From the NCBI GenBank assembly GCA_033439265.1, contig JAVTVX010000005.1, forward strand, positions 6,830,001-6,894,000: 64,000 nt of DNA. The letters run 5' to 3'. Every line of letters starts with the position of its first letter. Positions within the stretch are counted from its first letter, which is position 1. The DNA comes from Dillenia suffruticosa. Lineage: Eukaryota; Streptophyta; Magnoliopsida; Dilleniales; Dilleniaceae. Of the stretch, positions 13,928-57,330 are shown in pieces. The translations under genes and the position numbers were made by a program. The notes beneath the pieces are model-generated. The model was not told where the DNA came from and did not search any database. It saw nothing but the letters and a program-made list of their open reading frames with translations.

Positions 13928-14065
13928 GTACAAAAAGTGGGAGTTTCCTAAAAAAAACGCTAAACCCTCTCCCCATTTTTCTCTCTATTCAAATTCAAAA
14001 TCTGAATAGAATGGGTTTAGATTGGGTCTACTCTCATGGCAGACCCACACCATCATTTTACAACA
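13928..14065 (-). repeat. Copia-A left LTR remnant
   Basis: About 140 bp ending in TTTTACAACA align with the last 140 bp of the right LTR (22740-22888). They share the CCTCTCCCCATTTxTCTCT, TTCAAAT..GAATAGAATxGG and GGxTxTACxCTCATGG words. Only the far end of the LTR is present; it abuts the CACTA-like terminus. Confidence 0.65.
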
Positions 14066-14734
14066 TCTCTCAAATGCATATAAAAGTTAGACTCGCACAT
14101 AATATAATCATTACAATGAACACTAATTTCATATTGACAAGTGGATCATGTAACCTGCGATAATAATAAGAGTTCTAGGCTATACAGTGATTAAAGATAT
14201 ATAACAACTCATTTTTAATGTGGTGATGAGGATGTCGTATCTCGTCATATCCTAGACTTCTTTTACTAGACACAATCTATATATCTCACATCTCTCAAGC
14301 AATGTAAGAGTATACTTGACTCCAATCCAATCATATATTCATAATTACGTCTTCAAAAAGTAAGTCATAGATATAATTGATCGGTCTATAAGTACAGAGT
14401 AATGTGTCAATAAAAAACAATCTTTCTTTCTTAGTACTAACTTTTAACTTTATTTTAACTGATTTCCTAGACATATACTGTCAAATCAAATCTACCATGA
14501 TTTTTTTGTGACATATTAAAGTAGTAACACTAAAATAAAATTTTAATAGACAGTCGAAAGTTCTAAGGATATCAAATTGAGGTTAAATATGAGTTTATGG
14601 ATCTCACACAATGAGGTGAAGAGGAATGCGTCATCTCATTACCCATACACTCACATATACATACGTGGTATAAAATATGTGCTATGATATTATTTCTTTT
14701 CATTTGGAAGCATGTCTTGCATTATACAAGTTTT

Positions 14735-15650
14735 AGTCCAAGTGTACAAGACACTTGATTTGAGTTTTCCTTCTTATAAGCCCTCCAAAATCTCACAATA
14801 TCAAGGAAAACTTACATCTGACTATTAGACAAATTCAATGGATTGTGAAAAATCCATTTTGATTACCACTTATATATACACAACTAGTAATCTCATCTTA
14901 ATATTCCACTAAAGTAGCATGTATGTCAATCTACCTTAAATTAATATTGTCTCATCTTTACATATCACACAGACACTTAATCTTAGTTTTCCTTCTTATA
15001 AACCCTCCAATATCTCACAATATCAAGGAAAACTTATACCTGACTATTAGACAAATCAATGGATTTTGAAAAATCCATTTTGATTACCACTTATGTATAG
15101 ACAACTGGTAATCTCATCTTAGTATTCCACTAAAGTAGCATGTATGTCAATCTACCATGAATTAATATTGTCTCATCTCTACATATCATATAGACATTAG
15201 AGGTGATTGCTCATGTGAGAGTCCATTTCCAAAACTTGTCTGACATACCGTCAAATGTAAACACAAAAATTTTAGATACAAAAACAAAATTCAAATGTCA
15301 AGTGTACAAGACACTTGATCTGAGTTTTCCTTCTTATAAACCCTCCAAAATCTCACAATATCAAGGAAAACTTACACCTGACTATTAGACAAATTCAATG
15401 GATTGTGAAAAATCCATTTTGATTACCACTTATATATATACAACTGGTAATCTCATCTTAGTATTCTACTAAAGTAGCATGTATGTCAATCTACCATAAA
15501 TTAATATTGTCTCATCTCTACAAATCACACAAACATTAAAGGCGATTGCTCGTATTAGAGTCCATTTCCAAGACTTGTCTAACATACCGTCAAATGTAAA
15601 CACAAGAATTTTAGATACAAAAACAAAATTCAAATATCAATGAATATGAA
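14735..15650. repeat. Three direct repeats (~225-340 bp) in the 3' part of Copia-A
   Basis: The block TCCTTCTTATAA.CCCTCCAA, followed by TCTCACAATATCAAGGAAAA and TCTCATCT.TACA, occurs from about 14745, 14985 and 15320. The second and third copies are followed by a further ~105-bp shared stretch (GCGATTGCTCGT.. and CATACCGTCAAATGTAAACAC). Copies are diverged by several percent. The stretch lies between RNase H and the LTR, in element non-coding sequence. Confidence 0.8.
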
Positions 15651-16275
15651 CATTACATCATATATACTCTGCGTACAATTATAATCAAAATCGCAATTAT
15701 AATTATAGTCACGACCTATATAATCTAAATGATCTAACATGTCTCACAAATACGTTTTTTTGTACTAGTTTCGTAAAAGGGTCAACTACCATCAAATGCA
15801 TAGATATATACTTTAGTGTCATTTCTTTCTTTTCAATCATTTCTCTCTTTTCAATTATGTCTCTAACAAAATTGAAGTTTATGTTTATATATTTGGTTTT
15901 ATCATCGTATTTGAAGTCACTTATATAAACAATAGCTAATTCATTGTTACAATAATCATCACAGCTCTTACTAAGTTGTTTACTACTCCTAAATATTACA
16001 AAAATCTATTCAACAAAACTCTTTCTTGAACTACAAAAATATAGGCCACAAATTCTATTTCCATTGCACAAAATGATAAACAGGTTTGTTTATTGCTCTT
16101 CCATAAAATAGCCTTATTATTGAGCAAGAAAAACATAACCAAAGATAGATTTACTCTCATCTAAATCACCTCTCCAATCAGCTTTTGTGTATTCTTTCAA
16201 TAATAGATCATTTTCTTGATAACAAAGGAAATTATTTGCAATTCTCTTCAAATATCTCAATATCCTTTTCATAGC

Positions 16276-16972
16276 AATCCAATGACTCTTCTCTGGATTA
16301 GACTGATAGTTGCTGACTAAACCCATAGTATGACAAATGTTGGGATGAGTACATATCATAACGTATATCTAACTCCCAACCACACTAGAATATAGTACTC
16401 TACTCATTTCATATCTTTCTTCAAAGCCTCCAGACACATTTTTTGACTTACAATATATGTTATCAACATATAAGGAAAGAATCACAAATTTATCATTGGA
16501 CTTCTTTATATATACATAATAGTCTTCGTCTATTATGATAAAATTATAAGAGATCACGACTCTATTAAATCTCAAATACCATTGTCTTAAAAAATGTTTA
16601 AACTCATTAAATTGATCTATTTAATTTACATACTCTGTTTTCCTAATCTTTAATGATAAAACACTCTAGTTATATCATATAAACTTCTTCTTCAAGCTCT
16701 GCATTAAGAAAAGTAGTCTTCACATTAATACGATATAATTTTAAATACAAATTGCCAATTTTGTCAACAACAAACAAATGGATATAAATTTCACTATTGG
16801 AAAAAAAGGTTTCATCACAATCAATACCCTTTTGTTGACTGTAACCTTTTTGCCACCAGTTAAGTCTTATACCTCTCATTAGTTCTATCTGTCCTACATT
16901 GCATAGTTGTTTCCAACAACTTTGTGCCCTAGTGAAAGTTCAACTAATTCCCAAACATGATTGGATCTTATT
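16276..16972. repeat. Exact direct duplication, first copy (697 bp)
   Basis: Identical, as far as I can read, to 17510-18206 (offset 1234). The left flank of this copy and the right flank of the second copy are the parts that continue the original Copia-A sequence. Confidence 0.9.
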
Positions 16973-17511
16973 AATACCTACTCACCAGATCGATCATATA
17001 TATGCCTCATCGCATACATCAAACTATATAGCGCATGTGTAAACCTCATCGCATATAAAAGTCTGGTCATGTATGCCTCATCGCATACATCAAACTGTAT
17101 ATCACACGTATATACCTCATCGCATACACTAGAAATGTATTTTGCACTGGAATAAGGGATTCTGCTCATCTCCCTTATTTCCTTTATAAATTCTAGGGCA
17201 TGTGTCAAGATTCATATCTTTTTACCTTTAGCGATAAGAGTATCTTTTAGGTTGTCATCGCTCTTCTCGAAATGCTCAAGAATCTACCTGATGTAAAAAC
17301 TCTTGTTAAAGAGTTAACACCATTCTCAAGCGATCCCTATGGATCCAAAATCTGAGAATGAACTAAAACCTTATAACCATGTTACAATGGTCATTGGATA
17401 CTCTCTGTTGTTCCTGGCCAACAGAATGTCACCTTCATATGAGAACATGCCCATAAAGGAGTCATCGGGACGTATCAGATAAATGCAATGATCCTACTCG
17501 ATCATTACAAA
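16969..17511. repeat. 543-bp insert identical to 25167-25709 of Copia-B
   Basis: Matches the Copia-B segment base for base by eye (offset 8198) in the same orientation. It overlaps the duplication copies by TATT on the left (16969-16972) and AA on the right (17510-17511), i.e. short microhomology at each junction. In Copia-B this stretch is native, lying between reverse transcriptase and RNase H. Confidence 0.9.
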
Positions 17512-18206
17512 TCCAATGACTCTTCTCTGGATTAGACTGATAGTTGCTGACTAAACCCATAGTATGACAAATGTTGGGATGAGTACATATCATAACGTAT
17601 ATCTAACTCCCAACCACACTAGAATATAGTACTCTACTCATTTCATATCTTTCTTCAAAGCCTCCAGACACATTTTTTGACTTACAATATATGTTATCAA
17701 CATATAAGGAAAGAATCACAAATTTATCATTGGACTTCTTTATATATACATAATAGTCTTCGTCTATTATGATAAAATTATAAGAGATCACGACTCTATT
17801 AAATCTCAAATACCATTGTCTTAAAAAATGTTTAAACTCATTAAATTGATCTATTTAATTTACATACTCTGTTTTCCTAATCTTTAATGATAAAACACTC
17901 TAGTTATATCATATAAACTTCTTCTTCAAGCTCTGCATTAAGAAAAGTAGTCTTCACATTAATACGATATAATTTTAAATACAAATTGCCAATTTTGTCA
18001 ACAACAAACAAATGGATATAAATTTCACTATTGGAAAAAAAGGTTTCATCACAATCAATACCCTTTTGTTGACTGTAACCTTTTTGCCACCAGTTAAGTC
18101 TTATACCTCTCATTAGTTCTATCTGTCCTACATTGCATAGTTGTTTCCAACAACTTTGTGCCCTAGTGAAAGTTCAACTAATTCCCAAACATGATTGGAT
18201 CTTATT
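17510..18206. repeat. Exact direct duplication, second copy (697 bp)
   Basis: Second copy of 16276-16972. After 18206 the sequence continues into the Copia-A interior (GATTTCAGCCC..), which marks this as the copy next to the original right flank. Confidence 0.9.
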
Positions 18207-20050
18207 GATTTCAGCCCTTCTTCCATTACTTATTTCCATTCATTTTTTGCAGGACTAGATAGAGCCTTATTTATGTTTTTAAACTCTTTTTAATCTTCTA
18301 AAGAAACATTAAATCTTAAAATAATGTTTGGCATTGCTTTCCTAACATTTTACTAAGTTCGTAACTTAATTAAATCGTTAGAATTTAAATCTCTCATACT
18401 ATAATCAACATCTAACTCATTTTCCTACAATTTTAATGATCCAGTATGGTAGAGTCATCCTCTATATTAATTAATTCAAACAAAAACTCTATATCTTTTA
18501 CGTCATCTCTACTAGAAAATTCACTCTCCAGAAATATGATGTTCTATAATTCAATTTCTACTACAGTACCATTTTCTCATTCACCAACTTTTAAACTTGT
18601 CAACCATCTCATGAAGATATATTTTCTTTCATGGGAACTTAATTTTCCAAACTTATTGGAAAAATCTTGAATATATGCTACAATTCTCAAGGTCTGAAAT
18701 CATCCAGACACATCTTTCTACTAGTTCAAAATTCATATAGTGTCGTTGCTACTAATTTTGAAGGCACTCTGATCAAAATATAGACTGTAGTCAATGAGAC
18801 ATCTTCTCAAAAGGAAATCGGCAAGTTAGCTTGCATTATTATAGATTTTGTCATATTTGATGATGTCTTATTCTTTCTCTCTACAATACTATCCTGCTGA
18901 GATATATAAAAAATGGTCAATTGTCAGATCATATTTCTTTCATTATATAAATCTTTAAATTAATCTGATAAATATTCACGCCCTCTATCCATTCTAAAGG
19001 TCATGATTGTCCTATTCATTTGATTCCCTACTCATTTCAAATAACATCAAAGCATTCAAGTACTTCACATTTGTGAGAAATCAATTAGACATGACCAAAT
19101 CGCATGAAATCATCTATAAATGTAATGAAATACGAAACTCGATATCTCATTTTCCCATTCATTGGACCACGAATGTCTTAATGGACTAATTGCAATGGAA
19201 ATTCAGCCCGTAAGGTCTTTCCAAATGGTTTTCTCATCATTTTGTCGGCAAGACAATGTCTACACATTGGCAAATCAACTTTTATGAGTGAACTCAATAG
19301 TTTTACCTTCATTAGTCAATTCATCTTGTCTTGCCCTGTATGACCAAATCTAATATGTCATGTCACATCATCAGCAACAAATATTTAACGAATTTGTTGA
19401 TTACATTGCAACACCATGAAACATTTACAAGTTAAAATCAAAATACATGTCATTCAAATACAAATTATCCCTTTCTCTAGCAAAGTTCAAAAATATAAAC
19501 AAGTTTCAAAAGAACAATAACAAATATTAAATTCTATCTAATTTCTAACAAGTAAAGAATATCATGCAAAATGAGAGTTCGTCCACTTTGTAACTATAGA
19601 TTACTAAAACCAACTTGTCTAATCTCCACTCTTGCAATGTTCTGAACATAGATCCACCTCGTACTAGAAGGCATTTTATGAAAGTCCACAAATCTCTCAC
19701 GATCTGTTATTATATCCAGAATTGTTCTTTTGTGATCCGTCTTTATTCTTCTTTCCTTCTTACTATTTTTGGTTCCTTTTACACATAGAGCACAAGGCTC
19801 TTTTGAAACTGGACTCTATAACAAAGGTGTCAATTGTGAATCTCGAAACACCAAACTACTCATTCTCAAGATCAACGTAGCGAGCAGCATCCGATAAAAT
19901 TTTTGCACTATCATTGTAAGTCAAATTGAGTTTCAGGTGCTCCCACTTGTTAAGAATGGATTGGATTAAGATTTTAACTTTTTGTTCATCAGAGAAGACA
20001 TGACCTGTAGACTTCAACTTTGTTATTATGTTAAACAATCAAATATTATT
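18207..20050 (-). pseudogene. Copia-A integrase and gag remnants (fossil)
   Basis: The stretch at about 19300-18900 carries traces of a Copia integrase and its upstream zinc-binding part (LADKMMRKPFGK-like words). At 20038-19856 a piece with VFSDEQKVKILIQSIL and NKWEHLKLNLTYNDSAK resembles the UBN2-type gag of plant Copia elements. Coding potential is otherwise lost. Between 20050 and 22427 I see no recognisable gene; this would be leader and gag-proximal sequence of the element. Confidence 0.65.
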
Positions 20051-22427
20051 TAATAATGCGATCACCTCGTCTTTTGCAAGTATCAAACTTTGTGGTCAGC
20101 TCTCTTAGACGAGTTACACTGCTATCTTCACATTTCTCTCTGAGATACACCCAAGCGTGATGAGCTATTAAATTTTGCTAGTATTTGGGGGTCATCTCAT
20201 CAATCATAGAGCGAACCAAAATCGCTCGAGCAATGGAATTTATCTTTTTCCACCCCTAATAGACATCTTGATTTCTCCTCTGATAAATACTATTGCCCAC
20301 ACCAGGGTCCTACATTACATGCTTAATGCCATCCAAGGTATCCTATTCTTCTAACACATACCATATTTTGTGACGTCCTTTTTCATAATTGTCTCCGTTC
20401 AATTTATCACATTTATTCAAATCCGTAATAATAGATTTTAATGCTATGGTCTATATTATAAGAGGATGGATATAAGTACTAAAACTCATATCATACATAT
20501 AATTTTATATTTCAAAACTAACATGTACGACAGATCAACATTAGGTGTAGAATTGAAAGTTCATTAAGTTCTCAATCATCATCTATGGTATTAATGTATC
20601 ACCATCACAAATTTAATTTAAAACTACAAAATTCAATAGATTTTATGTTAGAATCACTCAAATTCTTCAAACCAAAAAACCTCCCACTTAAATATACAAA
20701 TAATTTAAATAATATTTTAATTTTGAATAAAAATTACTTAAATTCTACAAATTCAAAATTCATTCAAGAGACCCATGTTTTCTTTTGCATGCAAGATCAT
20801 TCGTATCAACAAATTTAGGCAACAAATGACTAATGGAAACTTTAAATTAAAATATCAAGTTTCTTTAATACATGATCATGGTCCTAACAGACAACTACAA
20901 TACACAAAAGAATACATTCAAATGCATGATCTCAATTCAAGATCTGTCCATTCGAGAAATCATATTTATCATTCACTTAGATAGTCTATTCGAAGGAAAA
21001 GATCTCCTTATAGCACGTGAACTCAAGCTATTTATACTTTGGGATAATAATTTCTTAATTTAGGTCTTTATATTCTTTACTCTCTATTTTTCTATTAATA
21101 CTGACATCACGTCATCAAGAAATATTCTCCCTCTCTCGGCAATCGTCTCATCAACCACACTAATCTAAAGAAGAATCAAAGAATTTTTCAAAATATATAC
21201 GTCATCACTCCAAAAAGAATGGTTTGGATCACAAAGTTTCTGGCTTTTTTTTTATGATCTCCAAATAATCTGGTAAAATATGATATGGTTCTATTTTATA
21301 AGTCAACATTTGACCCAACTTAATCATACACTCTGAATTTCTTAATATTCTAGCTATCCCCCGGAGAGGTCCATGAGTGAGTTTGATCCTCACAATTTTC
21401 TTGAAAAATGAAAACAATATATTGTTGGGTACACAGCCAACAATAATATGACATAAAATTTTATATACCAACTTCAAAAAATATGCTCAATTGTCAAACA
21501 ACTTTCTCTTGTAAAAACTAATTTTTCAAACAAAAATAAATAAGCATAAAACCAAATAGGTATAGAAATCCAGGTAGTTAATAATATGAAAATAATTTTT
21601 TAAGTCGTACAAAAATTTTCTACATTTTTTTGGGATAGAAAATAATTTTCTATATTTTTAAACAATTTATTGAGTTTAAAAATCAATAAAAATGATTTTT
21701 CAACACTCAAAAATAAATTAAAAATTACAAAAAAAATCACATAGGCATAAGAATTATTTTTTGTGAAAATTCTAACTTGAAACGATGCCCTTACGTGCCC
21801 TCATGCATAGACATAAAAATAATTTTTATGAAAATTTCATTCACGTGTATGTCATGAGCCACCTTTTCGATGATTTTCAACCATGAAATTTTAGCTACCC
21901 TCTATTTTTTATGCTTCTAAGTTCAATAGTGGTCTTAGTTTTCAGGTCAGACACCTCTAGCCTAGGGTATGGGATTCACGTGTCGTTGCCAAGAGTGGGG
22001 ATGGACATATTTTCTATTCATCTTCTTCATTTTTCTGTTATTCTTCTACAGTTCAAACCCATTTTTAAATTGTTATATTTTTCTCAATTTTTAACTATTT
22101 TTCGCATTCTTTATATGTTGAACAGTATTTTTCGAGAGGATTCTAACCATATAAAAATCAAATCATGAAATACAGTATTCTAAAAGATATGAGTATATAA
22201 ATTTCGACTAAGATTTGAAATATCTTATAATGTATTCAACGCATGCGTATCAAATTTTACATATTTAATTCTCATGGAATATGTATACTATTATGTAAAA
22301 TTGAGACAATTTTGTCAACCCTATTGCAAGATGCCATTAACGAATCATATACATTTTCATGGCGTTTTCATATTTTTTTAACAACCAAAAGGGGCAGGAA
22401 ATACACAAACATGGCTCTAATACTAAT

Positions 22428-22888
22428 ATCGGATATAAACAACCATCAAATTCAATTTTTTCATGCAAAAATTTTCGAATCCAAGTTGGGTTGGAATCAT
22501 TTATCTCTTGCAACGGTTGGGTATTCTAGGTGTAGAAGAGTATCATGAAAATTGGATCATTTTTTTTTTGTTCACAATTCCAATGTCCTTGATCAACCTT
22601 GTTCTCTCTCTTCAATGTAAAGATAGTTTATTCTATCTCTCTCTCTCTCTCTCTCTCTCTCAAAAGGCACGTTAGTTTCTCATCTCTACTTCACATATTT
22701 TGAATAATATGGACAGGTTTTTTCCAAAAGAGAGAGGGAGTTGTCCCACAAAGAGTGAGTCATAGGAAGAGAGGGAGTTTTCCCCAAAAAAAAAAGGCCC
22801 TCTCCCCATTTCTCTCTTTCTATTCAAATGAATAGAATAGGTTAGGATCGGGTTTACGCTCATGGACCTGCACCTCCATTTTCCAACA
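22428..22888 (-). repeat. Copia-A right (5') LTR, start approximate
   Basis: The right end, TTTTCCAACA, is supported by the left LTR remnant. The start is inferred from a degenerate primer-site-like string GGCTCTAATACTAATATC at 22413-22430. A TC dinucleotide tract lies at 22638-22662. The length of about 460 bp matches that of Copia-B LTRs. Confidence 0.5.
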
Positions 22889-23025
22889 AAAAGAAAAAAG
22901 CATAAAGTTATCGGTTCATAATTGCTTGCTAATAGAACAATGAAAATCAATTCAAAGTTGTTAGGTAATTCTTTTCATCTATATCATGTGATGTTATTAT
23001 TAATAAATATTATAATTAAATAATA
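22889..23025. other. Short spacer between Copia-A and Copia-B
   Basis: AT-rich, with no feature seen except that its last five bases (TAATA, 23021-23025) are the left target duplication of Copia-B. Confidence 0.6.
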
Positions 23026-23489
23026 TGTTGGATTTTTTTAAGGATTCTCATGCAGCGGAAGCATACAATAATTTTTGAAAAATAAATGAGATCGGGTTTA
23101 GGGTACCTCAATTCGTAGAATCTTCAAGCGGCGCTTTCCTTGATCCTATTTCGCGGTCGGGATGGTGATCACGAAGTTAGTCGAATCACCACCACAGTGT
23201 CACAACTCCCCAACCCTCTACATCCGATGATTTGCTTGACAATAGGAGATTTTCCTACGCGAAAATCTCTATCCCTCACTCTATTTTCTCTCTTAGAGAA
23301 TTCTTTGAAACCCTAACAAAATTGTCTTTCATGGTTTCCCCTATTGTTCCTTCTCACAGAAGGAAGGAAAGACCAATTTTCTTAATTGGTGGGGGGTTAC
23401 CAAATAATATTGGTTAATGGTAATTAAGGATGGAAGTTACCCCATTCCTTAATTACCCAAATGCCCATAATGGGCATAAATAACCAACA
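23026..23489 (-). repeat. Copia-B 3' LTR
   Basis: Starts TGTTGGAT and ends CCAACA on the plus strand. The polypurine tract on the minus strand (CAAGTGGGAGA, 23490-23500) lies just inside. Confidence 0.92.
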
Positions 23490-24619
23490 TCTCCCACTTG
23501 CACATTAGGGTATTTCACTTCCGTCAATCACAATATCGCAACTCATGCGATCTATCACATCACCTTACTGGACTTTTCATACTGGATTGGGTATCGTGCG
23601 ACGGGCAAGTACACCTGCAAGCAAAGACTTCTCGATACACCTGTTAGGATGATCGAGTAGTCACTGTTAGTATAAAAATAACTCGCTATACCCCAGACTC
23701 AATGCATTTACATCCATCGAGCCACTTTCCTCATCGAAAGTGATCCCCAATCAATTTGCTCGATATGTATTCATTATTATGTTTGAATCCCAACATGGAT
23801 TAACATAATAGGTCGACATATGAATACATGACAATGATGTAATGTCTATTGGCCTTCCTTTTCCCAAACTCGAATCTATCGGTCTCAATTCATCTGCTTT
23901 CCTAAACATGCCCCTTAGACCTCAATTTATCTTCCGGACCATAGGTAAACAGACTAAAATAGCAACACTGAACCAAAACTTCCAGAGACAGCCGAAAGTA
24001 ATAAGGGTATAAGAGATCCTACCCAATGGATCTCAGGTCTCACACAGTGGGAACGGGGATCAAAATCAAACTATCGTCTCAAATAATAGCTCCCACTGTC
24101 TCATGGTCGTCTCATCACACGTGGTATGAAACACGTGTCATAGTGTTATTCCCCTATCTCTCAAAGGGCATATGTCAGATTTCTCTAACACTGTACAGGT
24201 ACGGGACTCAGTCTACACATAAGACTCTACCCAGAGATCTCAGAGAGAGCATCTCAGAGACAATATCACAAATCGCAGGTGATATCTGAGATCTCAAACA
24301 TGGCTATTTACAGGCAACATGGATGTAGGTATTTCCATGTCGGTCATATCGCATATGACCTCATCCTGAACACATATCAGGGCGACTTATGTTCTAGTAG
24401 GGCTACTCTCAAAATCTCTTACAACTAGAATCCGTCTCATCTCCGCTCACTCAGAGTCGGAGGTGGTCACTCGTGTGAGAGAGTCGACCACGCCTGCCTG
24501 ACACATCTTTTATCACAAGATCACAATATATGATAATAAATGATGCATAAAATAAATATGTGACCCAATAATGCATACATGTCATATATTAAAATAAGCA
24601 TCTGAAACAGTATATAAGG

Positions 24620-26110
24620 AGAAATGTTAAAGTACACTAAACCAATGATTCCTTATCTCACAAAGGAATCTCTCACAACGGGTTTTCTGAAGAGATCAGC
24701 TCTCATGCTGTATGTCAAGGTGTACTTAGCTGTCACAATACCCTTCTCGATAATATCTCTTACAGTGGTTTTCGGTATTAATGTGTTTGGCTTTGCTGTT
24801 ACACTTAGGGTCTCATTTGTTGACAGTGTCGGTCTGATTATCACAATAATCATCACTGACCTCCCACTATCTGTCATGACCCCTAAGTCTCTCAAAAAAT
24901 TTTTGAAGCCAACCATTCTCATGAACTGCAATTGAGCATACTACAAGCTCAGTCTTTATCGTTAATAGAGATTTACTGGTTCTCTTCTTACTGCTCTGAG
25001 AAGATAAAACCTTTTGCGTTTATTCAGATCACTACTCCCAGTCAGTATCTGAATCCCAATGAAAAACACAAATCACCTCATCCGTAACACATGGAGAGGT
25101 CCGTAATTCAAATGAGATTTTTAAAAATCCTTTTTCACTATTCTACAGTGATCCCTTCAAGAATTCTATTAATACCTACTCACCAGATCGATCATATATA
25201 TGCCTCATCGCATACATCAAACTATATAGCGCATGTGTAAACCTCATCGCATATAAAAGTCTGGTCATGTATGCCTCATCGCATACATCAAACTGTATAT
25301 CACACGTATATACCTCATCGCATACACTAGAAATGTATTTTGCACTGGAATAAGGGATTCTGCTCATCTCCCTTATTTCCTTTATAAATTCTAGGGCATG
25401 TGTCAAGATTCATATCTTTTTACCTTTAGCGATAAGAGTATCTTTTAGGTTGTCATCGCTCTTCTCGAAATGCTCAAGAATCTACCTGATGTAAAAACTC
25501 TTGTTAAAGAGTTAACACCATTCTCAAGCGATCCCTATGGATCCAAAATCTGAGAATGAACTAAAACCTTATAACCATGTTACAATGGTCATTGGATACT
25601 CTCTGTTGTTCCTGGCCAACAGAATGTCACCTTCATATGAGAACATGCCCATAAAGGAGTCATCGGGACGTATCAGATAAATGCAATGATCCTACTCGAT
25701 CATTACAAAACCATAAGATATCACCTTCTTGTGAAATCTCAGGCGCCGCTGTCTAGATGATAGCTTAAGGTCGTATGTTGATTTCAAAAATCAATAGACC
25801 TCATCCACCTGATCTACTAGAACGAACCCAGAGGGATGCTCCATGTAGATCGCCTCATCTAGACTTCCAATACGAAAGCGGTCTTTACGTCCTTGTGATG
25901 TGACTCTTGATCCATGTTCGTGACAATCGCTGAAAGATAAACGGATCGAGATAAATTGGACTATGACTCATCGATAGTCCACCCCTCAGTCTAAGTGTAA
26001 CCCTCGGTTACTAGACGGGTTATTTACCTCTTCATCAATCCGTTGACCTTTATCTTGACTTTGAGAACCTACTCGTTCCCAATAGTCCATCTGCCCTCAG
26101 GTTGATCAAC
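24620..26110 (-). pseudogene. Copia-B reverse transcriptase/RNase H remnants (fossil)
   Basis: RNase H end words RDIIEKGIVTAKYTL at 24790-24740, and the RT-RNase H link ILEHFEKSDDNLKDTLIAKG near 25480-25410 followed by EMSRIPYSSA and SLMYAMRHIYD. This is the source region of the 543-bp piece found in Copia-A. A 71-bp tandem repeat lies inside it (25200-25340). Confidence 0.75.
25198..25345. repeat. Tandem repeat of 71 bp (39+32 bp subunits) in Copia-B
   Basis: The word CCTCATCGCAT occurs near 25203, 25242, 25274 and 25313, spaced 39, 32 and 39 bp. The unit corresponds to the conserved YAMR-containing stretch before RNase H. The same array is present in the copied segment at about 17000-17147. 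Confidence 0.85.
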
Positions 26111-26139
26111 TAGATCCCAGATCCCGTTGATTCTCATCA

Positions 26140-27600
26140 ACTCCTTCTCTTCATTTATGGCCTTTAATAAACGATCTTTTGCATCTTTTGCAGAACTCTC
26201 GAGAGCCTCTCGGACCGTTTTAGATTTCTCATCATCCTCTAGAGTCGCAACGAGGGTCTCACCCTCAATCGAGAAACAACGTTTAAATACGCATTCTCGA
26301 TACTCTTAGGAGGAGAGAAAAATTTTTACCTCTTAATGGATCGCTCCCACTGAGATCAAGATCTGTAGTGGATTCTTGTATCCCGCCGCTGGGCTCCCTG
26401 AGCCACTAGACTCATCCATCGCATAAAGGGTAGGGTCCAAATTGATTTCACCTCTCTTAGGGAAATCATTCTCAAGAAATATGGTATTACGAGACTCAAT
26501 ATTAATTATAGTGTCGTCTGTGTTCACCTAGGAACACGTATTTTCTTGCGGGCCTAACTCACCGTGTGAATGCGAGAATTCGTGGCACAACCCCATAACC
26601 TCAAGTGGCTTAAGTAGCTAAGGTCAGGCTGCCTCCCTGTCCAAAACTCAAATGGGGAACTGACTAATAGTCAGTAGTCTCGTAAAACTCTTCTCGAAAC
26701 AGAGTCTCATGTGTAGTTTAGACGAATACTTGCGTCCTCGCTCGGTTCTGAGAGTCTCTACTCTCAAATCTAACTGATTCTCAATCTCGTTTATGAACCT
26801 TCTGAAGCAGTCTAATGCCTCAGACTTATGCCAGATAGATGAACCGAAACGCACGTAAACGTCTATAATTATCTACACAACTCCATTTCTGGCTCTCATA
26901 CTCATAAGACCGCAAAAATAAAGAAAGGCACAATGGTCTAACTGCAATGGAGTCCCAGCTCTCATTGCATTACCAAAATGGTTTTCTTGTTATTCTGCCG
27001 GCTAGGCAAAGCTCATATACGGGTAACTCGAATCTGGTCAGTGAGTCCATTAAACCTCTCGCAACAAACCGATTCATCATCTCTTACCCTATGTGTCTAA
27101 GTCTACTATGTCATTCATTTACATCATCATCTACGCAATCAGATATAAAGACAATAATAGAACGTCAAGAAACCATTATGAGGAGCAGCACCCAGTGCAT
27201 ACAATCCATCATGGATTAAAACCAGAACAATTTATAAAATTTGTCGTATTAAAATAATGTTGTGCATATCCTAGTTAATCTTAGACAAGATACCAAATTA
27301 AAGATCCGTCGAATACCAACAGTATTAAGAACGTCATGGCAAGTGTCGTTCCCTCTGACAACGACAAATGCTTTGTCCTTAACGTAAATCCTTCAAACTT
27401 AAGGCTTCATTTGACGGAACTTTATTTACACACTCCTGTCTCGAGTTACGTGGTCGGTTGCTCCTGATTGAGAAATCAAAAGGCATAATTGTGAATGAGA
27501 CAAAACTCACACCACGTAAAGAAGAATAATATTAATTTCTTCTCGTCACACTCACGAGCGAAATGACCAAATCTACCGCAAACGTAGCAATTTACATTAG
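26140..27600 (-). pseudogene. Copia-B integrase and gag zinc-knuckle remnants (fossil)
   Basis: Integrase words RRFINEIENQLDLRVETL and TERGRKYSS lie at about 26820-26710. A linker with ENDFPKRGEINLDPTLYAMD follows at 26460-26390. A zinc knuckle of the form CYVCGRFGHFARE lies at about 27592-27545. Spacing follows the gag-integrase-RT order of Copia. Broken many times. Confidence 0.75.
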
Positions 27601-28560
27601 TCTAATCAAATTCCTTCTTCTTGCATTCTTGTATCTTGTTGTCGGTTTTATCGGATGATTTTTATTACCTGGATCTCGAGTCTCGTTCGCATACTTATGC
27701 TATTGGCTTAGCGCCAATGAAGTCCTTACTCGACTCCAATGAATTAGCATGACTCGAGTGTGGCCTACTCGCCCCTAAGTGCTCCTCATCGAGCTCACAA
27801 TACGTATTCACGTCAACGAAAGTACGAATACTTTCGTCAAATGTGAGATAGAATTTCACGGTTTTCCATGAATCAGGTAAAAACTGGATCACATCCAGTA
27901 CCTAAATTCCATCCGAAATTTGCTTGTCCGTATATTTTAACTCGGTGATCATACTCGACATTTGCCTCATTGTATGATTAGCCATTTTCTTCTGCATCCT
28001 CACATTAGGTGCCGAAGAGAGCAACAATGCTCTTATGGGACAAGACGAACCGACATTTCCATAGAATATGACTCGTAGAACGAGATTTAGTAATCGTGCA
28101 TGCCACTGATAAGTATTGCCCTAACTTGGCAATTCTTTTCTACCATGCACGATAGGTCCCTTTATCTCGTATACTCTGAGGTGCGGTGCCCACCTTGGGG
28201 CCCATCATCTCTTGCCTCAGATTTCCGTTAGATTTTGCCTCTCGAGAATAAACTGAATCTATTGATAAAATCTCGCATATCACATCATTCAGTTTACTCT
28301 CCTTACAAAAATTTAATACGACAGTTCTCAACGCATTAAGAGAAATATTTATGACTTGGACATGCTTATTATCCCATTTTTGTACGCCCTACGAATTATC
28401 AAGACCAAAATGACTTGAGTACAGACCCCAAAGCGAGCGTATGAGTCAACGGACACCATACACCACAACCCGGAATCGCATCTTACCATTTGGACTTTGA
28501 TTCGGCATACAAAAACCCACAAAAAGTCACATTTATGGATATAAGACCCCAAAAAATTTA
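27601..28560 (-). pseudogene. Copia-B gag region (fossil)
   Basis: MIQFLPDSWKTVKFYLTFDE at 27892 onward and the following ELDEEHLGA match the UBN2-type gag of plant Copia elements. The upstream part to about 28560 has no continuous frame. No activity is expected. Confidence 0.65.
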
Positions 28561-28569
28561 AAAAAATTC

Positions 28570-28965
28570 AATTTTAAGCGACCTCACGCGCAGCCATGGG
28601 GTTCACACGCGCCGCCGCACGCTGGCGGTGCACTCCATGCGCCTCCACGCGCCTTCACGCGCCGGCGGCGGTCTGCCGCACGCGCCAGACGCGCGGCGCG
28701 CCTCACACATGCCTCCACGCGCCTGGCGCGGCTTGGCTCACACGCGCCCAGTCGCGGCGCGCGGCTCACGCACCTCACGTGCTGAGCCGTGTTGAGCCGG
28801 GTCTGACCGGGTTGGTCAACGGGTCAGGGTTGACCCGAAGTCCGGTCAACGGGTCGGGTGGTCCGACCCGATTGGGTTGGTTACGGGTCGGTCACACACG
28901 CGCCTGCGGGTCTGGGTCGGGTCTTCTTCGCCCGACGGGTCCTGCAACGGGTTTTTCGACCCGTT
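28570..28965. repeat. CpG-rich repeat block in the Copia-B leader
   Basis: Two adjoining simple-repeat domains lie between primer site and gag. One is CACGCGCC-like (28576-28780). The other consists of ACGGGTC/GACCCG units (28790-28965). The surrounding DNA is AT-rich. Long ORFs on both strands here (for example 28596-29168) are composition artefacts and are not called as genes. Confidence 0.8.
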
Positions 28966-29447
28966 TTCTGAAAAACACTAATCCGGCTGTTTTTTCTTGC
29001 ATTTTTCGACTGGAAAAAATTTGTGGGCATCCTCTAAATATCCTACATTCGATTTTTGGAGATTCTAACCCAAAAATTATGGAAATCAACCACCACAGTC
29101 GCGGCCCTCCGAGGCCATTTGGAAATCCCAGTTTCCGGCATCCAATAATAAAAGACATAAAATTGTAGATCTAGATGCAAGAAACACATTTATAATTTTT
29201 TCATGCATCGATCCGCCCTCTAAAGCCACAGATCTAAGGATTTCATATCCGTACGATCGTAAACTTCGACCGCACTTTTCATGGCCCAAACATACTCAGA
29301 AAATTAAACAAAAAATAGTTTTGTAATCCCTGGGCCATGGGTATTCCTATGGTATTCTCGGATGCACGAAACTTATCCGTGATCCAGACCCCAAAATTTT
29401 AAAACCCCAAAATAATTCCGAAAATTATTTTTCCTAATCCAACATAT

Positions 29448-29460
29448 GCTCTGATACCAA
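29448..29460 (-). other. Copia-B primer-binding site (initiator Met tRNA)
   Basis: Minus strand TTGGTATCAGAGC directly abuts the 5' LTR, complementary to the 3' end of initiator Met tRNA. Confidence 0.88.
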
Positions 29461-29924
29461 TCTTGGATTTTTTTAAGGATTCTCATGCAGCGGAAGCATA
29501 CAATAATTTTCGGAAAATAAATGAGATCGGGTTTAGGGTATCTCAATTCGTAGAATCTTCAAGCGGCACTTTCCTTGATCCGATTTCGCGGTCGGGATGG
29601 TGATCACGAGATTAGTCGAATCACCACCACAGTGTCACAACGCCGCAACCCTCTACATCCGGTGATTTGCTTGACGATAGGAGATTTTCCTACGCGAAAA
29701 TCTCCATCCCTCACTCTATTTTCTCTCTTAGAGAATTCTTTGAAACCCTAGCAAAATTGTCTTTCATGGTTTCCCCTATTGTTCCTTTTCACAGAAGGAA
29801 GGAAAGACCAATTTTCTTAATTTGTGGGGGGTTACCAAATAATATTGGTTAATGGTAATTAAGGATGGAAGTTACCCCATTCCTTAATTACCTAAATGCC
29901 CATAATGGGCATAAATAGCCAACA
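29461..29924 (-). repeat. Copia-B 5' LTR
   Basis: Same length as its partner, starting at TCTTGGAT and ending CCAACA. It would supply the promoter for the leftward transcript. Confidence 0.92.
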
Positions 29925-29929
29925 TAATA

Positions 29930-32208
29930 CTTGAAGAGCTCTATCCTAGATTGATATCAAAATTAATAGCATATAACTTATTTGTTCAACCAAATTTTAC
30001 ATGTTAAACTCGATTCAAGTTTGAATATCTTAAAATTTTAAGATTATTAGAGTATCTAATCTTCGCTTCATTAACTTTCATCTCTTTTTATCAGTATTAA
30101 TCCAGTAAAAAATTTTAATCGTTTGTGTGTTTTTTTTCGATTTCTATATATTTTAACACTTCATTGGAAATTCTCTTCCCCCCCCCCCCCGTCCCGGGCA
30201 CTTGCAAAAATAAAATGTTATATTATAATTAAGCTTATAAGTTCTATTTTAGGAGACGTGGCAAGAAATATGGATTTTCCTTTTCATTTAGAATAAAATG
30301 TAGATTTACATTGTCAGGTAAAAATAAAAATAAAAAAGCTAGGTTGTCATCGAATAAATTTTTGTCCACTACATAAAACAAAATTTGGGAAGTAGAAATC
30401 CAAAACATAGCATAATTAGGTATACCTGGTGGTTGGTGTACGAGATAGATTTCTTAAAGAAATAAGTTCAACTTCAATAGTTGTGCGAAAAAATTATCTC
30501 ATTTTATAATCCTAAATGCACTGATCTCATATTAAGTTAAAAAAATATAAAATAATTGAAAATTTTGAAGGGCTAGTTTTGCCCTGCCTTTGTTCCTCAA
30601 TCACTGCCTACTAGTGTAAAAATTTTGCAAAGGTTGCCAAGGATGTGAAAATAATTGATTTCTTGCAACTATTGAGAAAAGTTGATTATCTTTTTATCAC
30701 TGCCTACTTCTTGTCCTTTGGGCATGTATATTTGGGCATTAGGATTTATTATTGGTGATACTTTGATTAGTGAGGAGGATTCCAGCAACAAAATTTGGAG
30801 AACAGGCTGGTTGGAAGATTCTGAGGTAACTGATGGTCTGACTTTGCTGATCACAGGTGAAGACGCTGAGGTTAATAACAATCTCTTGTTCTAAGTGGTT
30901 GGTCTTGATTGACCCTTGCTGCCCAATATTTGGCATGGTGTTCTGTAGAACTACTGATTTTTTAAATGACTCGTTCTTGCATTACTTCTTTTGGACCTTG
31001 TGGATTGAAGTCTATGGTACTTTTAGCAGATGTTGCCTTTACCATAATCAAAAAAAAAGGGGGGGGAATTTCTACGCTCAAATTTTAGATTTCTGTTCAC
31101 CCAAAGTTTCTAAGAATTTGTGAATAAAATGGATATTCTAATGTACTGGTGCATTTGGTTGGAGAATGCTGGGATCTTTGAGGGTCCATTCCATAATCCT
31201 TTACTTTTTTTTGGGGGGGGGGGGGGGGATTAAATGTTGTTGTTTGCCTCTCGTGCCTTGTGGTTTGCTTTGAAGTGTTCTCTCTTAATAGATTTGCTAA
31301 GCGCTCCTTTGTTTTTAAGTTTTACGACATTCTTTGTCTTTGAACTTTGTTTTCTTTAGGATGCCTCATCATTGTCCTCCTTCTCCACGTGTTTTTTCTA
31401 TTAAGGATGAAATAGACTGGGAGATGACTTATTGCATTATAAGGAAGTAAAAGTTGACACAGTTCCGGATGATGAAACCAGGTAGGTCCCATCCATTCAA
31501 ATCTCTTTTCTTGCAGGTCCCCCCCCCCCCAATACTGGATGTTTGAGTTGTATAAGTCTAGTTATTGAGAAACATATTCATTTAAATTGTATTTATTTGG
31601 TTGTTATGCAGAATGATGATACAATTTTGTCTAGTCTTCTTGCTGTTTAATAAGGTTAAAGGAGGCCTTTTGGTAGAACTTCTTATTATTGTGCAAAGTA
31701 TGTTTAAGCTCTTCTTTTAGCTTTTATACATTTAGCTTTAATAAGCAATTCTTGATAAAAGGTTTAGTTAAGCTGTAGTTGAATGGATTAAAGATTGCAA
31801 TAATAAGTTGTAATTTGTTTTGTGGATATTGAAAACACCTACTGTTATGTCCATCAGAAGCTTCTTTTTATTTATTTAGCTTTTGTTTAAGCAAATAATG
31901 TGTTCTGGGAGGTAGAGGCAAAAGTGGATCAATTGTGATTCATGTCCATATAAGTCTAGTGGCATCCCGGTTCCTTAGCCCCACGAGCACTTCGCTTGTT
32001 GCATGGGAAATCTATCACACCACAAACCTTGATTAACTCTAGTGGTGTTTTCCTTTTTGTTTCTTTTCTTTTTTACAAAGAAGGGAAAAAAATTGTAGTC
32101 TCCTTTAATTTTGTTTGATCTATCTCCTTTCTGACTTTTATAGTTCGTTAGGTTTAGTATTTTTTTTTTTTCACACTGGTGTACTTCATGGCTCATTACC
32201 TTTGGCAG
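29930..32208. other. Low-copy region upstream of the MLH1 fragment, no certain gene
   Basis: T-rich, intron-like DNA with homopolymer runs (C at 30179-30190, G at 31209-31228, C at 31517-31526). An exon-like piece lies at about 31360-31482, between TTTCTTTAG and CCAG/GTAGGT, but I do not recognise its translation in any frame. Overlapping 70-codon ORFs on both strands near 30670-30930 have no domain. This may be intron and upstream sequence of the same gene copy. Confidence 0.4.
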
Positions 32209-32431
32209 GGTCAACATGGCAGAAGGTTCCCGTTCATAAAATAGTAAGAACACTGCTTGTCCTGCGGGTAGATTGGATACTTACTTGCAACCTTGAAACC
32301 TTGAAAGCTATGCTTAAACGAATTCAAAGTTATTAGTAACCTTATTCTCTGCATCCACAGGCTTGTTGGACATTGTGAGGCATTGCACATATATTGGATT
32401 GGCAGATGACACTTACGCATTGCTTCAGCAT

Positions 32432-34856
32432 TCTCACGCCCCGAACCGGGTCGTGGACAGTCGCCTATTGTCCTTGGATGTCGGTTGTATTTTTACAGAA
32501 AATTGGACAGAACCTCCCCATAAATCGGAGGTTTTCCGTGTACAATTTAAATCTGTATAATCAAAATCACCCTGTAATTTAAATAAATGGTCATCTCGGC
32601 TCTCCAAAATTAACAAACATCACCGCCAACATTCAGAACAACGTAAGGCTACAAGTTTCTAGCAGTCCTAGCCACAGACCTCTACTGTCATGCCCAACTA
32701 GACTATGAACAACCGCCACAACGAGCGGATCTAACTTTTATCTTATATACAATAATTTTCCCAAGTAAAATTTAAATATGTACAATCGTCTCAATGCAAA
32801 TGAAATATGAGAGTTAAATTATACAGTTATCCAAAAATAAGTACACGGCCAACTACAGAGCTCAATGTCAATACCTCGCAGGATCGAAACTAGATTAGAA
32901 GTAAATCTCACCGTCAGAAATACCAACTCCGCTCTAGAGCCTGTAACGTCACTCTATCACAACAAACCTGTCTGAAGAGGGAAAAGAGAGGGATGAGTAT
33001 CATGGGAAGATACTCAGTGAGTGAGGGGGATAATATCAAGCATAAATGGCATGAGTGAATAATTTGGAGTGTCAAATAATATCATTTGAAACAAAATTTA
33101 TATTTTCGCGGCAAAATATGATATGTTTAGCAATTTGAAATTCAATTAATCAATCACAAGATAACAAGCATGTATGCATCCATTTAAAATCAAGTAACAT
33201 CAGAGCGAGCCAAAAAATGGTCCTGGCAAAGGTCAACCGTGACCAAGGACAGGCGCATCGGGAGTTTTATTATGCATGACTTCAAAACGCTCTCTACCCC
33301 GACGTTGGCCATGAGTTCGCTGGGGCTAACTCATCAACGTGTATAGGACCCAGTCCGGTGCTAGACGGTGGCGTCACACACGTCTTCCCCCTACGTGGGT
33401 TCAACCGGCCGCTCCTATAGCCTTTAGAATAAATGACGTTTGCGGATACCTCTTGCAGAAGCGTATCCGGGCAACCCGTGCCTCTACAAACGCCCTTCGT
33501 AGCTACGGAATCATCATAGTATCACAAGGGCACAACGTCCCATAGCATCACAAGGGCACAACGTCCCACAAGTATCATCACATCATCGCATAACTAGTAG
33601 GCATCCAACCCACATAGTTCATCGAAAATATCTTTAAATTTGCGTGCCAATACATCTCATCAATTCATTTCAAAACAGCATATCAATACAACGGTATAAA
33701 ATGAAATTTATACATTTTCAAATAATGGCACAATTATTGTTTCATTTCAAACCATGGATGCATAGTCATTGTAAATATAATTCAAAACACTTCAAAAATC
33801 ACAAAACAGATTTCTAAATTTAATATCATACGTCAAACGAATGCATATCAAAACATAGTTTATCGAAAACACGACAGAAAATACGTTTACTATTTTATAC
33901 AAGAGATTAGAGTCTCACTCACATGTCTAGGGAGGGTGGTCACTCCCTACTTTTCAACGACTCTCCAAAAGACAAATCTAATTAAATCATCAAATTTTAT
34001 ATCAAATAAAACCCTAATAAGGGAAAATTTATTCACACTGTGAAGTGAGTGCGTTTCTCTCACCTAGAGTTTCTCGGTTTCAGATCTAGCGTCATTCGCC
34101 CTTCGGGTTGGTTTAAAACCTATAATATTTCTGAATTTCAAATCTATTAGAAACCACTAAATTTCTAACACCAAACCCTAGAACTTTAACCAAATATAGT
34201 CATTACCTGCAGTACAGAAGATGCAGGTGAGCTCTCGAAGGGGAAAACTGGTCGCGGGCTCGCGGGTCGTCACGGGCTCCCAGGTCGGTGGGCTGGCTGC
34301 TAACGGGCTGGCCCGCTGGTGGCTCGCGGGCTCTCAGCCCGGCTTGCTGGTTGCAACGGGCTTCGCGAGTTGCAGTGGGCCGCGGCTGGACTGGGCCTTG
34401 GGCCGCTGGTGGGCTGGCCCGCTGGTGGGCTGGCCCGCTCACGGGCTAGGGCTAGGGCTCGCGCTGGTCGCGAGCTGGGTCGCGCGCTGGGTCGCGAGCT
34501 GGGTCGCACGCTGGCTCGTGCTGGGTCGCGCGCTGGCTTGCGTGCTGGCTCGCGGGAGATCGCGCGCAAGGCTCGCGATGGCTCGAGGCGGCAGCGTTCG
34601 TAGGGGATCGCACGAATGCGTGTTGTGTAGACGGTGAAGCACTGGAGCGGGGTGCGCAAGTGAGCTCCCGAGCAGGCGCGCGCTCGCGCTATGGAGCTCT
34701 TGGACAGTTGCGTGCTCGGCTGGGCTAGCGCAGCTCGTAGGAGATCGCACTGCGCGGAGGAGAAAGGCTGCTCACGGGAGGCGCTGCAGCCGCGGCGATC
34801 GCAGGAGGAAGGCGAGGCGGTGGGCAGCGGAGGAGGAGAGTAGCGGTAGAGGAGAA

Positions 34857-36605: not shown

Positions 36606-38812
36606 CTAAAATTGTATATCCTCAAGTGGCATTACGCCCATACGAGTAACATGCTCAAGGAATACTTTGGGTGGCAAACCCTTTGTAAGTGGATCCGCAA
36701 TCATGGAGTTTGTTTCTATATGTTTTATAGACATCTGACCACTCTGTACTCTTTCTTTAACAACCAGTAACTTGATGTCTATGTGTTTGGACTTTGTCAA
36801 ACTCCTGTTGTTATTGGAATAGAGGACTGCCGATTTATTGTCACAAAATAATTTGAGTGGCTTATCAATGCTATCCACTATCCGTAGTCCCGTGACAAAA
36901 TTTCGCAGCCATATTCCATGGTTGGATGCTTCATGACACGCTATAAATTCTGCCGCCATTGTGGAAGATGCTATAAGAGACTGTTTAGCACTCTTCCAAG
37001 AAATGGCTCCTCCTGCTAGCATGTAGATATAGTCTATTATAGATTTCATGCTATCTTGACATCCCGTAAAGTCGGAGTCAGTATACCCAGTGATCTCAAG
37101 CCGTTCCGACCTCCGATACGTGAGCATATATTCCTTCGTTCTTACAGATACCGCAAGACTCGTTTGACAGCTTTCCAATGGTCCATTCCAGGATTACTTA
37201 AGTATCTGCCCAACATTCCTATAATGTACGCAATATCTGGACGCGTACATACCTGAGCATACATCAGACTTCCTACTGCTGATGCATAAGGAATCTTCTG
37301 TATTTCCCGTTTCTCAATATCATTTTGGGGGCACTGTTTGAGACTAAATTTGTCTCCTTTGGATACAGGGGTATCACCAGGTTTACAATTTTGCATGCCA
37401 TATCTCGTTAAGACCTTTTCAATATATCCCTTTTGGGACAATTGCAGAATACCTTGAGAACGATCTCGGTGTATCTGAATGCCCAATACGAAAGAACTTT
37501 CTCCAAGATCTTTCATCTCAAATTTCTTTGTGAGAAAGATCTTGGTTTCATATAATAGATCTTTATCGTTACTGGCAAGCAATATGTCATCGACATATAA
37601 AACTAGAAAAATATATTTACTCCCACAAAACTTATGGTATATACATTCATCAACTAAATTCATCTCAAAACCAAAGGAGATGATTATTTGATGAAATTTA
37701 AAATACCATTGTCGAGATGCTTGCTTGAGTCCATAGATGGATTTTTTAAGTTTGCAAACCATATTCTTTGGATCTCCCGACACAAAGTTTTCTTGTTGCA
37801 ACATATATATCGTTTCATCAATGTTACCATTGAGAAACGCCGTCTTTACATCCATTTGGTGTAACTCAAGATCAAAATGTGCCACTAACGTCATTATAAT
37901 CCTAAAAGAGTCTTTCGAAGAAACTGGAGAGAAATTCTCTTTATAATCAATGCCTTCTTTCTGTGTGAAACCTTTTGCGACAAGACAAGCTTTATATCTC
38001 TCCACATTACCTTTCGAATCCCTTTTGGTTTTAAATATCCATTTACAACCAATGAGTTTTGCTCCTTCAGGCAATCGGACAAGATCCCAAACGTCATTGT
38101 CCTTCATGGACTTCATCTCCTCATTCATGGCATCAATCCACTTTTGAGAGTTACAACATTCAATGGCTTGATGGAAGTTGATCGGATCATCTTCCATCAC
38201 TCCAATGTCAACATCATGTTCCTGAAGAAATACAACATAGTCATCCGGAATTGTATTTCTTCTTTCTCTAGTGGATCTTCTTAATGGCATAGGTTCTTGA
38301 GGTGGTAGAGTTTGTTTTTCGGAATTGGAGGGTTCTCCAACATTGTCTAACTCTATTGTGTTTTGAACAGGATCAGGGATAGAAATCTGGTCAAGTCCAA
38401 TAACACCTGTGGGAATATCAATATATTCCTCTTGAAAGACAATGTTTCTAACCATATCCCTCCCGGCAAACTCAACATCCTCAAAAAAACAGGCATTTCC
38501 CGACTCAAAAATGACCTTATTTGTGGGATCATAAAATTTGTACCCCTTAGATTTTTCAGAGTATCCTATAAAATAGCAACTAACTGTCTTAGCATCCAGT
38601 TTCCTTTCATTGGGCCTAAAAGGCCTAGCCTCAGCTAGACAACCCCAAACGCGCAGATGCTGCACACTAGGACGTTTGCCAGTCCAAAGTTCGTAGGGGG
38701 TTTTGGTAGTTGTCTTAGTAGGAATCCTGTTGACAAGGTATGCTGCAATCTTGAGTGCCTCTCCCCAGAGTGACTCAGGTAAGGCAGAATGAGCAATCAT
38801 GCTTCTTACCAT
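36606..38812 (-). pseudogene. Copia-C integrase end, reverse transcriptase and RNase H (fossil)
   Basis: After the integrase tail ([31 protein letters not shown]) comes reverse transcriptase with [53 protein letters not shown] and the catalytic [12 protein letters not shown]. RNase H follows with YTDSDFTGCQDSMKSI, AISWKSAKQSLIASSTMAAE and LFCDNKSAVLYSNN, ending at 36606. In a working element this would be part of one polyprotein. This copy is not intact. Confidence 0.9.
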
Positions 38813-39052
38813 ATCCTGAAGAGTTCTGTATCATCTTTCAGCAACACCATTCATGGCGGGTGAGCCAGGCATGGTATACTGTGGGACGATACCGCATTCC
38901 TCTAGGAAGTGAGCAAACGGTCCTGGATGCTATTCACCTGAACCATCATTTCTGCTGTAATATTCTCCACTACGATCAGATCTGACTTTCTTAATTCGTT
39001 TGCCGAGTTGATTTTCAACTTCAGCTTTATAAATTTTGAACATATCCAGAGA

Positions 39053-50258: not shown

Positions 50259-50263
50259 ATTGT

Positions 50264-52645: not shown

Positions 52646-52690
<45 letters not shown>

Positions 52691-52763
52691 GGGGAAAAAA
52701 GAGAGATTAAAACTTTTTAGCCCTAATCCAGATTTTTTTTTTTTTTAGTTCTCTGGTGTTACA
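50264..52763 (-). repeat. Gypsy-3 3' LTR
   Basis: 2,500 bp. Contains the conserved hairpin block (50821-50880), a short ACAACGTCCCAGGGC tandem repeat near 51380-51420, a GC minisatellite (52010-52490) and a GA tract (52640-52687). The adjoining polypurine tract reads AGGGGGTTAGAAAA on the minus strand. Confidence 0.92.
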
Positions 52764-53934: not shown

Positions 53935-54001
53935 AACAACAACAACAACAACAACAAAATCGGGATTGGGGCTAAAAAAAGCCCCAATTCTCTCTTTTTC
54001 C

Positions 54002-54062
<61 letters not shown>

Positions 54063-56518: not shown

Positions 56519-57330
56519 CTTAGGAATGGGAAGAGGCTGCAGTGTGCCCGCTAGACGTTGATGCTCGGTCTTCACCTGCTGGCACACCAAGCATCGTGCC
56601 ACAAACTCTGCTATATCCCTCTTCATGACTGACCACCAATAGCTACCTCTGATGGTCCGGTATATCTTTGTACCCCCGGGATGCATAGCATATGCAAAAG
56701 AATGTGCTTCCTCAAGGATAGCACGTCGAAGATCACTATCAGCTGGGACACACACTCTGTCTCTGAATACCATGATTCCATCATCACGGACTCTGAAGTC
56801 TCCGCCCTCAACTCTGCGGACTCTATCTACAAAACCCTGAATCTCCTTATCTGTACTTTGGAGCTCTCTGATACAGTCGAACAAAGTCGGCCTGACCTCA
56901 AATCTAGCCAGTAAGCCTCCCCAATCATCGTTAGTCAAACTGACTCCTAAGGCTTAGAGTCCCACTAAACAAGAAAGTAGGCTTTCTCTGTCGACTGTGA
57001 GGATGATACTGACTTCCGACTCAAGGCATCTGCTACAACATTCGCTTTGCCCGGATGATAGTCAATAATGAGGTCATAATCTTTGAGGAGTTCTAACCAT
57101 CTCTTCTGTCTCAAATTCAGCTCCTTTTGGGTAAATTGATATTTCAAACTCATGTGATCTATAAATACCCTGCAGGTCACCTCATAAAGATAATGTCGCC
57201 ATATCTTCAATGCAAAAACTATGGCTGCCAACTTCAAATCATGTGTCGGGTAATTAACATCGTGTTTCTTCAGCTGTCGCGAGGCATATGCAATAACCCA
57301 TCCATCCTATATTAGAACACAACCAATCCC
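56519..57330 (-). pseudogene. Gypsy-3 RNase H end and integrase front (fossil)
   Basis: RNase H end [18 protein letters not shown] and [20 protein letters not shown], then [17 protein letters not shown]. The integrase zinc domain follows (H-PGGTKIYRTIRGSYWW; CLVCQQVK). The sequence reaches the solo LTR at 56518 and continues beyond it at 53880. Confidence 0.88.

Follow-up and report, generated by a model that had tools for sequence, protein, structure and literature searches.

An exact 697-bp duplication around a 543-bp copy of a neighbouring Copia element in Dillenia suffruticosa

The locus and its surroundings

The window analysed here is a single stretch of 64,000 nucleotides of the Dillenia suffruticosa genome (C5:6830001-6894000), whose assembly consists of 596,357,000 bases on 37 contigs. 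It is rich in reading frames of Copia- and Gypsy-type LTR retrotransposons and carries one hAT-type transposase frame (664-2016) of 451 amino acids, with a hAT dimerisation domain and an RNase-H fold. No tRNA genes were identified by ARAGORN. Outside the Copia elements, the segment 30017-30337 has ten copies of 78% identity on the same contig, spaced approximately 20-130 kb apart within C5:6.11-6.52 Mb, and a second non-Copia segment (30428-30554) has matches of 84-85% beside them; the two are possibly part of a tandem gene cluster. Pieces of the region at approximately 30556-32093 are 85-94% similar, in the same order, to C12:21779564-21783180, a possible duplicated (homeologous) stretch. A GC-rich repeat is present in four copies (32431-34599, 50263-52745, 53947-56521 and 60737-62319), the third of them inverted, with pieces approximately 70-94% alike. 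Several contigs of the assembly are of round size (18185000, 20990000, 20717500 and 25790000 among them), as though scaffolding had cut them to a grid.

Two Copia elements, both on the minus strand, make up the locus. Copia-A (13929-22892) carries the duplication. Its limits are approximate and tentative, being taken from probable LTR remnants near 13929-14070 and 22763-22892, which are identical at 105 of 127 aligned positions with a further 18 gap columns; BLAST gives 74.8% for the remnant at 13933-14065. An earlier note on this DNA described Copia-A as heavily decayed, which agrees with the stop codons that interrupt its duplicated segment in all three minus frames and with a best relative across that whole segment of 78% identity (own genome, best 40 of 941 candidates). 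Copia-A also contains an older complex tandem duplication (14739-15640) of three units that are 92-96% identical in pairwise comparison, the first unit lacking its last third.

Copia-B (23026-29924) has LTRs of 464 bp (23026-23489 and 29461-29924) that differ at 18 positions (K2P 0.040) and a 5-bp target-site duplication, TAATA. It is the younger of the two elements. The longest stop-free piece of Copia-B in the translated stretch 24600-27400 (minus strand) is only 95 codons, though its LTRs are 96% alike, and the element may have been defective already when it moved.

The structure within Copia-A has the form A-B-A', and its anatomy can be seen directly. Segment A (16276-16972, minus strand) is a 697-bp part of the reverse-transcriptase region and is repeated without a single difference as A' (17510-18206, minus strand), which runs on into the right flank; continuity with that flank is also found in relatives of the element. 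Between them lies B (16969-17511, minus strand), a 543-bp filler identical throughout to 25167-25709 of Copia-B. Both identities, as first noticed from the letters of the sequence, hold exactly and are maximal at these coordinates, so that the host segment stands twice around the insert with no gap. At the first junction, A on its right side and the donor on its left side have the motif TATT in common (16969-16972, no strand assigned); at the second, AA (17510-17511, no strand assigned) stands both at the donor's right end and at A's left end. These overlaps of 4 and 2 bp were likewise given correctly in the earlier note, as was the donor distance of 7.7 kb, which amounts to 7656 bp by coordinates. 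All parts of the structure and the donor lie on one contig. No other exact repeat found in the window comes near the 697-bp and 543-bp pairs in length; the longest after them measures 109 bp and belongs to the paired LTRs of a third Copia element.

In the Copia-C frame (37145-38830, 562 aa), the tblastn counterpart of A runs from approximately residue 554 to residue 245, the latter extrapolated. Two stop-free pieces of A match Pfam RVT_2 with E-values of 0.00032 and 0.00075, both under the curated cut-off. The one stop-free piece of the donor that was scanned (25179-25409) has no Pfam match, and the assignment of B to the reverse transcriptase therefore rests on tblastn.

Ancestral state, donor and age

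The state of the locus before the event was sought among relatives of Copia-A. Segment A and the right flank were used as queries against the plant's own genome and the best 40 of 941 and of 1950 candidates, respectively, were scored. A subset of these became loci, which represent 24 distinct places of the Copia-A family outside the window (L011-L028, L030-L034 and L036; L035, L037 and L038 are repeats of places already counted). Each was aligned to a construct of the left flank, one A and the right flank. Among the matches listed, up to six alignments per locus, 20 of the 24 relatives run from A into the right flank within one alignment, and nine of the 24 also run from the left flank into A in that same alignment; in L016, L020, L031 and L034 no single alignment bridges A and the right flank. 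Neither junction of A-B-A' occurs in any of the 24 relatives. Exact 28-base junction strings are found at four of the 38 loci (L001, L009, L010 and L029), all of which are the event locus itself, and a search of IMG/VR with the junction string gave 0 matches. Among the loci examined, A-B-A' thus occurs at the event locus alone; the single A seen directly in the relatives is the ancestral state and A-B-A' the derived one, with a net gain of 1234 bp.

None of the 24 relatives holds an A-A' intermediate with the same ends. One relative, L023, has a tandem duplication of its own, 263 bp long and 96% alike, over the right part of A (1774-2298 of that locus; G000:C12, approximately 16633717-16634241). 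It has no filler, its end points are unlike those of A-A' and it is unrelated to the event described here; it does show that the A region can be duplicated without an outside template. The other 23 relatives contain no repeated part of A longer than 7 bp. A further local duplication in the family is found at G000:C17:11887969-11892162 (L011, L038), where a segment of the right flank (query 404-1076) is present in three consecutive copies, 75-77% identical to the query.

Among the genomic matches to B, the local copy stands at 100% and its closest rival at 95% (best 40 of 3070 candidates). Five diagnostic sites, none of them gaps, are common to B and the local donor and set them apart from all six other copies compared. 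If the source of B had diverged as much as the LTRs of Copia-B, the observed 0 differences in 543 would have a probability of 5e-10. The nucleotide comparison therefore identifies the donor (25167-25709, minus strand) as this very copy of Copia-B. The donor is still in place: B was copied and not moved. It lies in cis, 7.7 kb away, within a 596-Mb genome that has many copies of its family, which counts in favour of template switching.

Transposition was considered and rejected as the source of B. Copia polyprotein homology continues through both donor ends by tblastn, and both ends of B fall inside the polyprotein region of Copia-B; B thus has no element ends, which contradicts its insertion as a retrotransposon. 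Nor does the 697-bp repeat qualify as a target-site duplication, being unlike the 5-bp duplication around Copia-B.

The two exact pairs together show 0 differences in 1240 positions, compared with 18 in 464 between the LTRs of Copia-B (Fisher p = 5.3e-11). On this count the event is younger than the insertion of Copia-B, in line with the recent date that had been proposed for it. At substitution rates of 1.3e-8 and 6.5e-9 per site per year, which are general background values, the 95% upper bound on its age is approximately 93 or 186 thousand years, respectively, although polishing or gene conversion could make the apparent age fall below the true one.

The joints and the origin of the structure

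Beyond TATT and AA, identity does not extend to either side of the junctions. In simulated draws of random junctions between Copia-A and Copia-B, an overlap of at least 4 bp has a probability of 0.021 and one of at least 2 bp a probability of 0.178; for the two junctions together, an overlap sum of at least 6 has a probability of 0.015, the whole test being post hoc. The overlaps of 4 and 2 bp are weak microhomology, of which the 2-bp one is within chance, and a role for microhomology at the junctions is suggested but not proved.

The register of the joints is informative. In polyprotein coordinates obtained by tblastn, junction 1 connects residue ~245 of A (extrapolated) to residue 545 of B, and junction 2 connects residue 388 of B to residue 554 of A'. 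These joints are directly seen to be out of homologous register, and homology therefore did not guide the exchange. Unequal crossing-over and gene conversion would place the junctions at homologous positions of the repeats, and the register speaks against both as their source. The left ends of A and B are approximately 9 codons apart (residues 554 and 545); we take this closeness as a coincidence, because the ends that are actually joined do not match. A global nucleotide alignment placed 16276 near 25453 of Copia-B, against the protein register; with matches in just 1612 of its 3223 columns, it was set aside. The junctions are non-homologous under both the nucleotide alignment and the protein register. 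Hairpins were also considered as a cause of the breakpoints. The left end of A (16276) coincides to the base with the start of a 6-bp stem (hairpin at 16276-16299), and a 7-bp stem (hairpin at 25685-25704) stops 5 bp short of the right donor end at 25709. Only one of the four ends lies within 3 bp of the edge of a stem of at least 6 bp, against a background of approximately 11.5%, which is no enrichment, and hairpins were rejected.

We consider it somewhat more probable than otherwise that A-B-A' arose in one recent event of repair or replication synthesis with two template switches, that is, as a cycle of templated insertion with a single template, of the MMBIR/FoSTeS type. FoSTeS and MMBIR proceed by serial template switches at short microhomology, and A-B-A' may share with them the serial switches and, in its overlaps of 4 bp and 2 bp, the microhomology. 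A growing DNA end would have copied A up to 16972 and then detached. TATT would have let it re-prime within Copia-B of the same chromosome, at 25167, and after 543 bp of synthesis there it would have detached a second time; through AA it would then have resumed at the beginning of A, either on the sister or on the original template, copied A again and run on into the right flank. The product would be A-B-A' with its net gain of 1234 bp and an unaltered donor. The starting lesion may have been a collapsed fork, as in MMBIR/FoSTeS, or a break with two overhangs that were filled in and bridged by the filler. That a polymerase switched templates, that synthesis ran in this direction and that a single event was involved is what we infer. 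The first reading of the sequence had proposed template switching or break repair with templated filler, with an assembly error as the main alternative, and it gains support from the single-A relatives, the identity of the donor, the order of ages and the register of the joints.

The closest competitor is a staggered ('patch-mediated') break, a reading that we regard as possible but would hold only tentatively. Two nicks 697 nt apart on opposite strands would have produced overhangs that were filled in and joined through a filler from Copia-B, by strand invasion in the manner of SDSA or by polymerase theta. Template switching and break repair with filler lead to the same finished product and are indistinguishable from it, so that the sequence fits the break almost as well as it fits template switching. 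A direct duplication of break-flanking sequence with filler between the copies is indeed present, and relative L023, with its filler-free 263-bp tandem duplication, also speaks for such repair. Excerpts of the rice literature add to this: insertions arise most often by tandem duplication, with perfect ones reaching 4.9 kb (PMC7971508), and those of 10-1000 bp include partly tandem duplications as well as ectopic donors (PMC7407515). Size speaks against the break: in rice the share of tandem duplications among insertions shrinks from 70% to 5% once 200 bp is reached (PMC7971508), and the published fillers in the excerpts are shorter, at 1-123 bp for rice excisions (PMC4423477) and 1-131 bp for maize (PMC2686159). 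The break would in addition require two overhangs of approximately 700 nt. Serial template switching is preferred because the duplicated and inserted lengths both exceed those of the usual fill-in duplications and fillers.

It is unlikely that the structure is an artefact of the assembly or library, in which a chimeric molecule or a wrong join created A-B-A' and polishing equalised the copies. The perfect identity of both pairs is what an assembly copying error would give, and A and B both lie within repeats. Yet the joins rest on 4 and 2 shared bases, and assemblers use overlaps far longer than this; the assembly is highly contiguous, with 37 contigs for 596 Mb, and the window contains no N. 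Random chimeras would also show no preference for a donor as near as 7.7 kb; intramolecular chimeras can.

The remaining explanations have little to recommend them. A 1234-bp extrachromosomal circle of A and B that returned into A by homologous crossing-over would, with one crossover, yield exactly A-B-A', and reintegrated circles have been proposed for duplications at human loci in the part of PMC7188851 that treats them. This route needs two ligations, a small circle that persists and a crossover back at its own locus, and the sequence does not call for a circle; we judge it very improbable. Two separate events, a tandem duplication of A followed by insertion of B at the seam, would each be of a known kind, and a filler-free tandem duplication with other end points exists in L023. 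The second event must, however, have struck the exact base of the first seam, and A-A' with these ends occurs in none of the 24 relatives, which leaves this sequence of events slightly more improbable still. Reverse transcriptases switch templates, and Copia-A and Copia-B are both Copia elements in the same orientation, but a mosaic formed between their RNAs before insertion has next to no probability: it predicts that A and A' are as old as the insertion of Copia-A and is contradicted by the age order, since the two are identical while the LTR remnants are strongly diverged, and moreover the decay in A is common to both copies and the insert has the private sites of the neighbouring genomic Copia-B copy.

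Known systems and wider meaning

Several described systems resemble A-B-A' in part. Cycles of templated insertions, as characterised in PCAWG tumour genomes, re-replicate a host segment and string one or more outside templates between the copies, according to the passages of PMC7025897 that describe them. A-B-A' has this arrangement, with A present twice and an outside template between the copies. The cycles in those passages come from human tumours and their templates typically come from other chromosomes, whereas A-B-A' lies in a plant and has one template 7.7 kb away. The patch-mediated tandem duplications of rice (Vaughn and Bennetzen 2014, as reported in excerpts of PMC7407515 and PMC7971508) share with it a direct duplication at the repair site, sometimes with ectopic sequence; A-B-A' exceeds most of that class in length, and the 543 bp of its filler were copied from a neighbour that has been identified. 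At repaired plant breaks, as at maize p2/p1 (PMC2686159) and at rice excisions (PMC4423477), filler DNA is likewise copied from other sequence. The fillers in the portions of these reports that concern them measure 1-131 bp and usually come with a deletion, in contrast to the 697-bp duplication seen here.

As far as the excerpted account of PMC7407515 defines them, A-B-A' falls within the range of rice insertions made up of partly tandem duplications and of ectopic sequence. It belongs to a known kind, of which it is a large and exceptionally complete example, and represents no new mechanism. A literature search made by mechanism, and not by locus or organism, found no paper describing the locus.

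The interest of the locus is that it is a clean and datable scar: its donor and recipient are known, and so are the two junctions and the ancestral state. The locus indicates that copying from a neighbour on the kilobase scale can build mosaic retrotransposon sequence without transposition, and mosaics of this sort could mislead the classification of elements. It is doubtful, but conceivable, that cycles of templated insertion on the kilobase scale with local donors (<10 kb) take place regularly in the germline and give rise to mosaic elements in retrotransposon-rich plant chromatin. If they did, A-B-A' would stand as a fresh example beside the older array at 14739-15640 and the duplications of L011/L038 and L023.
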